The position numbers were made by a program, and so were the translations under genes. The notes under the pieces are model-generated. The model was not told the origin of the DNA. It searched no databases and saw only the letters and a list, made by a program, of their open reading frames with translations. From assembly GCA_022226935.1 (NCBI GenBank), contig CP092081.1:916734-980733 (forward strand): DNA of 64,000 bases, in the 5' to 3' direction. Below are positions 36,209 through 37,630 of this stretch, in pieces. Each line of letters starts with the position of its first letter. Positions within the stretch are counted from its first letter, which is position 1. Source of the DNA: Nitrospira sp. (GTDB lineage: Bacteria > Nitrospirota > Nitrospiria > Nitrospirales > Nitrospiraceae).

Positions 36209-36481
36209 TCAGGCTCCGGAAGTCCGGCCTACTGACCTGTGCTGAATATAGTGAATATCCACCATCTGCTCCGATCGGTCGATCGAGTAGAAGATGCGCC
36301 AGTCGCCCACGGCATATTTATGGATGCCGGGCAAATCAGCCGCCACTGGTTCATGCCGCAAATTCTCTACGTTGGAAGCCAGCCACTTTGTTTTGTCGAA
36401 CAATCGCTGGGCCATGGCGGGATCGGCAGCGCGCAGGTCGGTGATCACGTCGGGGCGAAACGCGAGGCGAAACCAGGGCAT
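36209..36481 (-). CDS. RelE/ParE-family toxin
   Basis: A 90-residue protein from ATG 36481, directly after the antitoxin stop (TAACATG). The fold is typical for RelE/ParE toxins: a start strand FRLAFRPDVITDL, two helices (PAMAQRLFDKTKWLASNVENL), and the final strands LPGIHKYAVGDWRIFYSID and MVDIHYIQHRS. The pattern GDWRIFY-x-ID-x-VDIHYIQHR is the core of the family. It is either a ribosome-dependent mRNase or a gyrase poison; the sequence does not tell which. Confidence 0.85.
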   Translation of the reverse strand: MPWFRLAFRPDVITDLRAADPAMAQRLFDKTKWLASNVENLRHEPVAADLPGIHKYAVGDWRIFYSIDRSEQMVDIHYIQHRSVGRTSGA

Positions 36482-36482
36482 G

Positions 36483-36701
36483 TTACCACCGCAGACCGAG
36501 CTTGTCGGCCACCTCGTCACCGGAGAGACGCTCTGTTGAGGAGAGGGACTGCTTCAGGCGTTCGCGGACGGACTCACCGAGCGGCGCGCCGAGATCAGGA
36601 TCGCCGATCAATGTTCGCAGCCGGTCATCGACGAGACCTTCTACAAGGTTCTTGAGTTCCGCCAAGCTTAAGTTGGAGAGGGTCATGGTCGGTTCAGTCA
36701 T
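36483..36701 (-). CDS. Antitoxin of the RelE/ParE pair
   Basis: A 72-residue acidic-to-neutral protein from ATG 36701: MTEPTMTLSNLSLAELKNLVEGLVDDRL, then a C-terminal arm (ESVRERLKQSLSSTERLSGDEVADKLGL). Its helical plan, size and position directly before a RelE-like gene support the antitoxin role. No good ribosome site is seen at 36701; ATG 36686 is an alternative. Earlier in-frame starts overlap the sigma-factor gene and look wrong. Confidence 0.75.
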   Translation of the reverse strand: MTEPTMTLSNLSLAELKNLVEGLVDDRLRTLIGDPDLGAPLGESVRERLKQSLSSTERLSGDEVADKLGLRW

Positions 36702-36774: not shown

Positions 36775-37362
36775 TCACGCCCCGCACGTCGATCCGCTGG
36801 TTGCCTCGCAGGAACAATCCAAACAGCCGTGCACGGAGCAGGTGCCGCAGACCTTTTCGATTTGGCGACGCAGCGCCGCTCTGGCTCGATGGACCCGGAC
36901 GGCCGCATTCTCGGCGGTGATGCCTGACTGTTGAGCCAGATCTTTCAATGTGCCTTCTTGCAGATCCACGATCTGCAGCGCTTCGCGATATTCCGGTTTG
37001 AGCGTTTCGAGCAAACCCGAAACGCACTGGCAGATCTCCTGCCGCAATTCTGCTTCCGGCTCCTGGATATCCGGAAATTCCCTCGTCCAAGCTTCCAACA
37101 CCCGTTCGGCGGCCGATCGCTGCCGGTAGTGATCGATCACGGCGTTCCGGAGCACGCGATAGAACCAGGCCACGACCTTTTCGTCGTCCACGCCGGCTCC
37201 GCGCTCCAAGCCACGCGCAAACGCGGTTTGAAGGATGTCCTCCGCCACGGCCCTCGACTCCACCCGCCGCTCCAGGAACGCCAGAAACTGCTTATGTCCC
37301 TTCACCAGCTGTGCGATGGCCTCCGGCGAGAGCGCTGTCGATGGTGTGGATTCCTGCGTCAT
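36775..37362 (-). CDS. ECF sigma factor with a cysteine-rich C-terminal tail
   Basis: A 195-residue sigma-70 family protein of the extracytoplasmic-function class. Region 2 is at residues 20-90 (FLAFLERRV, AEDILQTAFARGLE, VVAWFYRVLRNAVIDHYRQR), region 4 at 115-170 (LKPEYREALQIVDLQEGTLKDLAQQSGITAENAAVRVHRARAAL). After it comes a tail with six Cys (KVCGTCSVHGCLDCSCEAT and TCGA), which could bind a metal or sense thiol stress. No anti-sigma gene is beside it. The start ATG 37362 has no clear ribosome site; a longer frame to 37611 overlaps a divergent gene. It faces a cysteine-rich mini-protein gene across a 106-base gap. Confidence 0.9.
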   Translation of the reverse strand: MTQESTPSTALSPEAIAQLVKGHKQFLAFLERRVESRAVAEDILQTAFARGLERGAGVDDEKVVAWFYRVLRNAVIDHYRQRSAAERVLEAWTREFPDIQEPEAELRQEICQCVSGLLETLKPEYREALQIVDLQEGTLKDLAQQSGITAENAAVRVHRARAALRRQIEKVCGTCSVHGCLDCSCEATSGSTCGA

Positions 37363-37393
37363 GGGAGGCAGCTTACCAAAGTCTGTATCGAAC

Positions 37394-37419
37394 TGTAAGG
37401 TTTTCGGGGGCACGCCGTC
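37394..37419 (+). promoter_or_regulatory. Candidate ECF-type promoter of the cysteine-rich mini-protein
   Basis: TGTAAGG (37394-37400) and CGTC (37416-37419) are 15 bases apart, as in ECF-sigma promoters with a CGTC -10 box, and point towards the mini-protein gene 50 bases downstream. The link to the adjacent sigma factor is an inference. Confidence 0.35.
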
Positions 37420-37468
37420 AGCCCTTGTGACAACGCAATCACGCGTTGGCATAGCAAAGGAGACCACC

Positions 37469-37630
37469 ATGGCCGACATGAAGACATCCATCTCGCAGAA
37501 AATCGCCAAGACCGGCTGTTGCGGAACATGCGACTGTTCCTCTTGTACGTGCGGATGCCAGGCCAATGCCTGTCGTTGTGAGCAAATCAATTGCCAATGC
37601 GGGTGCCGCAAGCGAACCGCCGGCCGGTAG
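37469..37630 (+). CDS. Cysteine-rich mini-protein, metallothionein-like
   Basis: A 53-residue protein from ATG 37469, behind AAAGGAG. After 16 residues it carries twelve Cys in close CC, CxC and CxxC spacing (GCCGTCDCSSCTCGCQ then CRCEQINCQCGC), a composition seen in metal-binding thioneins. It has no signal peptide. It differs from the SmtA-type protein at 2343 in order and spacing. It is divergent from an ECF sigma factor that also ends in a Cys-rich tail, and may be its target. Metal bound is unknown. Confidence 0.75.
   Translation: MADMKTSISQKIAKTGCCGTCDCSSCTCGCQANACRCEQINCQCGCRKRTAGR

Follow-up and report, generated by a model that had tools for sequence, protein, structure and literature searches.

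A CorE-like sigma factor facing a metallothionein-like mini-protein in Nitrospira: a probable one-target copper circuit

CorE (MXAN_3426) of Myxococcus xanthus and the CorE-like ECF sigma factors, formerly ECF44 and now placed around ECF238, are the closest described systems to the locus reported here; CorE itself is unclassified in the 2021 ECF classification scheme (PMC8999054). According to PMC3107203, the cysteine residues of CorE lie at positions 181, 184, 189, 192, 194 and 206, of which 181, 184, 192 and 194 are invariant and Cys189 is the main residue for copper activation, and MXAN_3427 is a CorE-dependent gene in M. xanthus. A CXC motif in the linker between sigma2 and sigma4 is essential in CorE-like factors (PMC8999054). 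The 21 CorE-like factors compiled in 2011 (Fig. 9 of PMC3107203) include NIDE1902 of Ca. Nitrospira defluvii, a protein for which this was the only paper in the literature searched to contain a mention.

The window analysed is a stretch of 64,000 nucleotides (contig CP092081.1, positions 916,734 to 980,733) within a complete 4.23-Mb genome whose closest relatives are Nitrospira. On its minus strand, at 36775-37362, is a gene for a 195-residue protein, P0001, with matches to Sigma70_r2 (8.6e-9) and Sigma70_r4_2 (1e-7), both above the Pfam cut-offs, and an architecture consisting of sigma2 and sigma4 only. The protein terminates in a cysteine-rich domain, C-GT-C-SVHG-C-LD-C-S-C-EATSGST-C (36784-36849, minus strand), with the arrangement C172-X2-C175-X4-C180-X2-C183-X-C185-X7-C193 and H178 inside it, and the sigma2/sigma4 linker contains the CorE signature CXC as C111-Q-C113 (37024-37032, minus strand). 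A preliminary description of this DNA had remarked on a sigma factor with a six-cysteine tail and no anti-sigma gene, and both observations are borne out; Pfam detects no anti-sigma domain in the seven neighbouring genes checked. Just downstream of the sigma gene, at 36212-36700, is a ParE-type toxin gene accompanied by a likely antitoxin, and only some Nitrospira loci keep the toxin gene.

The spacing of C172, C175, C180, C183 and C185 is identical to that of CorE Cys181, 184, 189, 192 and 194. This CX2CX4CX2CXC module is retained in 55 of 61 sigma factor rows, four of the 61 being outgroup, and the first five tail cysteines and H178 are kept in most relatives across several phyla, the sixth cysteine being variable. 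The linker CXC is found in every CorE-like row among those listed and is missing in the SigZ-type outgroup. P0001 shares it with a M. xanthus protein (locus L032) to which it is 55% identical; this protein was identified as CorE from its exact six-cysteine spacing and from an HMA-domain gene behind the same promoter, which matches the reported MXAN_3427. Closer still is the sigma factor on FP929003.1 of Ca. N. defluvii (L009), which is 86% identical to P0001 and very probably NIDE1902, the orthologue of P0001. Judged by these sequence features, P0001 is a CorE-like ECF sigma factor of the former ECF44, that is, a known kind of which a Nitrospira member was already listed. Assignment to the SigZ-type ECF factors was rejected, given a score of 103.2 bits against a cut-off of 168.65 for the SigZ equivalog (NCBIfam TIGR02959) and a fully supported split in the tree between the CorE-like set and the SigZ-type outgroup. 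In an AlphaFold model of the sigma factor alone, the cysteine tail has a pLDDT below 50 and is uninformative on the metal site. One Nitrospira assembly has its sigma gene in two frames near a contig end (L018, 168-768; G011, C138), reflecting a frameshift or a sequencing error.

Divergently transcribed from the sigma gene, across 106 bases, is the gene for P0002 (37469-37630, plus strand), a metallothionein-like mini-protein of 53 residues with twelve cysteines, as had previously been read, preceded by a Shine-Dalgarno sequence AAGGAG (37457-37462, plus strand) that is kept in relatives. Among 14 Nitrospira orthologues variation falls on third codon positions and all twelve cysteines are invariant, the median dN/dS of 0.20 denoting purifying selection; these values, together with the cross-phylum pairing described below, rule out a chance open reading frame or chance cysteine content. 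A Pfam and NCBIfam profile search of P0002 gave no match at E up to 10, so that no described metallothionein family profile applies; five other mini-protein types likewise gave zero Pfam matches and a sixth gave one chance match only, and relatives of P0002 in the PDB were limited to chance-level matches, none significant. In composition P0002 resembles a metallothionein, being short, rich in cysteine and dense in CXC and CXXC pairs, with no long hydrophobic stretch. Mini-proteins of different clades show little similarity beyond their cysteine patterns, so that function must be read from composition and regulation, and on this basis we infer that P0002 is a metallothionein-like metal (copper) buffer. 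By the same token, the sequences are too dissimilar outside the cysteine pattern to support a single origin of the mini-protein types. In the literature searched, which covered metallothioneins in connection with Nitrospira and with CorE, and ECF238 in connection with small cysteine-rich proteins, no description of the mini-protein was found. The mini-protein partner, its link to the promoter and the one-target circuit appear to be the new part of the system.

The putative ECF promoter of P0002 lies at 37394-37419 (plus strand) and reads TGTAA-N17-CGTC, or TGTAAGGTTT-N12-CGTC, followed by AGC, in agreement with the candidate TGTAAGG-15-CGTC recognised earlier. Of 46 payload sites across phyla, 44 have exactly 17 bases between TGTAA and CGTC, and one of the two odd sites is a second, overlapping-pattern match in L007. 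In most payload sites the -35 box is followed by GTTT and the -10 box by (A/T)GC. The 23 loci L062-L084, whose sigma factors are more distantly related, all lack the motif. Within the 4.23-Mb genome the strict motif has a single match, at the P0002 promoter, and a relaxed motif likewise has one; a still looser motif adds two sites, for which no Shine-Dalgarno-supported gene is present within 250 bases (backwards control, 14). A chance promoter is ruled out by the cross-phylum conservation, the fixed spacing and the single strict match, and the sigma factor almost certainly switches on P0002 through this conserved promoter. Because the strict and relaxed motifs each match once and the extra loose sites have no supported gene, the regulon of P0001 probably comprises one gene, as defined by consensus patterns only. 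The same genome encodes one CPC-type YHS P-type ATPase, situated elsewhere than this locus, and a search for HMA-domain proteins in it returned no match at threshold.

In the divergent layout, there is no further ECF motif directed towards the sigma gene and hence no visible sign of self-activation through TGTAA-N17-CGTC. A consensus scan of the region located no sigma-70 promoter for the sigma gene, leaving this layout without a visible sigma promoter. A candidate sigma-70 promoter on the minus strand, CTGACG-18-TACAGT, which would overlie the ECF promoter, was dropped because the consensus scan was negative. In the same-strand layout found in other genomes, the sigma gene follows its own promoter, which makes self-activation probable. 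The P0002 leader includes a hairpin with a 6-bp stem and a 6-base loop (37431-37448, plus strand), which begins 11 bases after CGTC, close to where the transcript is expected to start. In 17 Nitrospira leaders 98% of hairpin cells are paired and two pairs have changed on both sides, and most Acidobacteriota leaders have a hairpin of different sequence in the same place. No Rfam element was found in the P0002 leader. The hairpin is likely to be a 5'-terminal stem-loop that stabilises the mRNA, and might also be an operator dyad.

Conservation of the pair in other genomes had been named in advance as a check on the preliminary description. At least 35 loci from Nitrospirota, Acidobacteriota and Verrucomicrobiota have a cysteine-rich mini-protein next to a CorE-like sigma gene, and nearly all of these mini-proteins are preceded by the same promoter. 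The predicted compact circuit, in which metal would activate the sigma factor directly and the sigma factor would produce a metal-binding protein, is supported by the persistence of both pair and promoter box across these phyla. Nitrospira, Bryobacterales and other Acidobacteriota have the two genes in divergent orientation. In Edaphobacter, Granulicella and their relatives the mini-protein gene shares the strand of the sigma gene and lies directly upstream of it, whereas in Opitutaceae and one Terriglobia it lies downstream. Outside Nitrospira the shared gene context is the pair only and the flanks differ; within Nitrospira the flank is partly common. A Terriglobia assembly has a 68-residue open reading frame with approximately 15 cysteines (L028, 5639-5845) adjoining a CorE-like sigma gene and with its own motif. 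Small cysteine-rich open reading frames, rich in CC and GCGC, also occur near SigZ-type ECF genes that have neither the CorE tail nor its promoter (L070, 228-539; L078, 3765-4028), perhaps a separate association of cysteine protein and sigma factor.

Where CorE-like loci are without the mini-protein, the same motif often stands before other genes. It precedes YHS-HMBD P-type ATPases in L029, L036, L039, L049, L052 and L053, and in L055, where the assignment was made from the YHS start; an HMA protein in L032 and L034; a DUF4396 protein in L047; and a cupredoxin in L025. About a dozen CorE-like loci, often on short contigs, have neither the mini-protein nor these alternative genes behind the motif. 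Other Nitrospira and a related genus possess a second CorE-like sigma factor, 40-45% identical (L127-L133, L135-L137), whose TGTAA-N17-CGTC stands ahead of an HMA, DUF4396 or YHS protein. Membrane-like DUF4396 proteins are found behind a CorE-type promoter in L047, L129, L131 and L132, a position that suggests a role in metal handling.

Within the genus, an orthologue of the sigma factor (at least 83% identical) is present in 19 of 28 other genomes, and the mini-protein accompanies it in 18 of these 19. The strict promoter occurs once in each of the 19 genomes that carry the sigma factor and in none of the remaining nine. In the single exception, G011, the locus ends approximately 110 bases past the promoter, so the mini-protein is not visible. 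Wherever it can be judged, sigma factor, promoter and mini-protein in Nitrospira therefore occur together or not at all. The sigma factor tree places the Nitrospira sequences within those of Terriglobia (support 98/88 and 98/90), nearest to L016, and both L016 and the Nitrospira loci have the mini-protein and promoter; this nesting, with the shared partner and promoter, suggests that the whole unit was transferred between Acidobacteriota and Nitrospira. The direction of such a transfer would be read from how the sequences nest, and single metagenome assemblies may include misbinned contigs.

We consider it probable, at roughly three chances in four, that this locus is a one-target circuit of the CorE type, in which copper acts through the sigma factor on a metallothionein-like copper buffer. 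By analogy with CorE, a metal, most likely Cu(II), would bind the CX2CX4CX2CXC module, with the linker CXC probably taking part, and so turn the sigma factor on. Activated sigma factor would then bind core RNA polymerase, and the holoenzyme would fire TGTAAGGTTT-N12-CGTC, apparently the sole such site in the genome. The twelve-cysteine product would chelate excess metal, and the consequent fall in free metal would reset the sigma switch. The preliminary description had proposed metal or thiol stress as the stimulus; the cysteine arrangement and the alternative payloads behind the same promoter, namely HMA proteins and YHS-HMBD P-type ATPases, point to copper over metals or thiols in general. 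The same circuit could nevertheless have zinc or cadmium as both its inducing and its bound metal. Metallothioneins frequently bind zinc and cadmium, and CorE2, a CorE-like factor, responds to the same two metals. A CorE target is also weakly induced by them (PMC3107203). However, P0001 has the equivalent of Cys189 and is missing the extra, adjacent cysteine of CorE2 specificity, and HMA proteins and YHS-HMBD P-type ATPases follow the same promoter elsewhere, with a copper-translocating ATPase near one annotated locus; we regard zinc or cadmium as an unlikely substitute for copper. A sigma factor responding to thiol or oxidative stress, for which the zinc-thiol switches of ZAS anti-sigma factors offer a precedent in ECF signalling (PMC8999054), is very improbable, given that the CorE target cuoB was uninduced by hydrogen peroxide and diamide (PMC3107203) and that other genes behind the same promoter handle metals.

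The mini-protein might also act on the sigma factor itself, as a small anti-sigma or as a metal donor or acceptor controlling how the cysteine domain is loaded with metal, instead of storing metal. The tight linkage of the two genes, sometimes in an operon with the mini-protein first and the sigma gene following, and their strict co-occurrence in the genus Nitrospira would be expected of such a regulator. Nevertheless, many CorE-like loci have no mini-protein and have ATPase or HMA targets instead, and mini-protein sequence and length vary greatly among similar sigma factors, a pattern easier to reconcile with a product that binds metal than with a specific contact between proteins. This role in place of storage is hence quite improbable, and the two roles are not mutually exclusive. 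A fuller form of the copper-buffer reading is possible rather than probable, and we offer it tentatively: that the mini-proteins are undescribed copper metallothioneins tied to CorE-like sigma factors, that the product of the one-sigma, one-gene regulon in Nitrospira strips copper from the sigma cysteine domain and so closes the loop, and that pair and promoter travelled together between Acidobacteriota and Nitrospira.

The locus ties a little-studied class of metal-sensing sigma factors to a metallothionein-like effector, through a promoter conserved enough for the regulon to be readable by eye. Viewed across genomes, CorE-like sigma factors seem to use a single type of promoter for payloads that can replace one another: a metallothionein, a copper ATPase, an HMA protein or DUF4396. 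A circuit of one sigma factor and one target without an anti-sigma factor represents a simple test bed for activation of a sigma factor by its cysteine domain. The locus also identifies a likely metal defence of nitrifiers that are important in the environment.

Compared with CorE and the CorE-like ECF factors, P0001 has the same core cysteine spacing and linker CXC, and no anti-sigma gene was found near it; the P0002 promoter is of the same type as that of the HMA gene matching the known CorE target MXAN_3427. It differs in that CorE targets are copper ATPases, a multicopper oxidase and an HMA protein, whereas the target of P0001 is a metallothionein-like mini-protein in a regulon of apparently one gene, and in the position of the sixth cysteine, 8 residues after the fifth in P0001 and 12 in CorE. 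The NIDE1902 locus, seen through L009, has the same mini-protein and promoter as that of the window, neither of which is mentioned in the accessible text of PMC3107203. Among effectors, the relevant comparison is with known bacterial metallothioneins. These include SmtA/BmtA and MymT. MymT is copper-protective and under the control of RicR (as cited in PMC10141476). By description, P0002 resembles these proteins in its length of around 50 residues, its cysteine content of roughly one-fifth, its many CXC and CXXC pairs and its metal-linked regulation; it differs in matching no family profile or PDB entry, and in that they are controlled by repressors, whereas P0002 would be controlled by a sigma factor.
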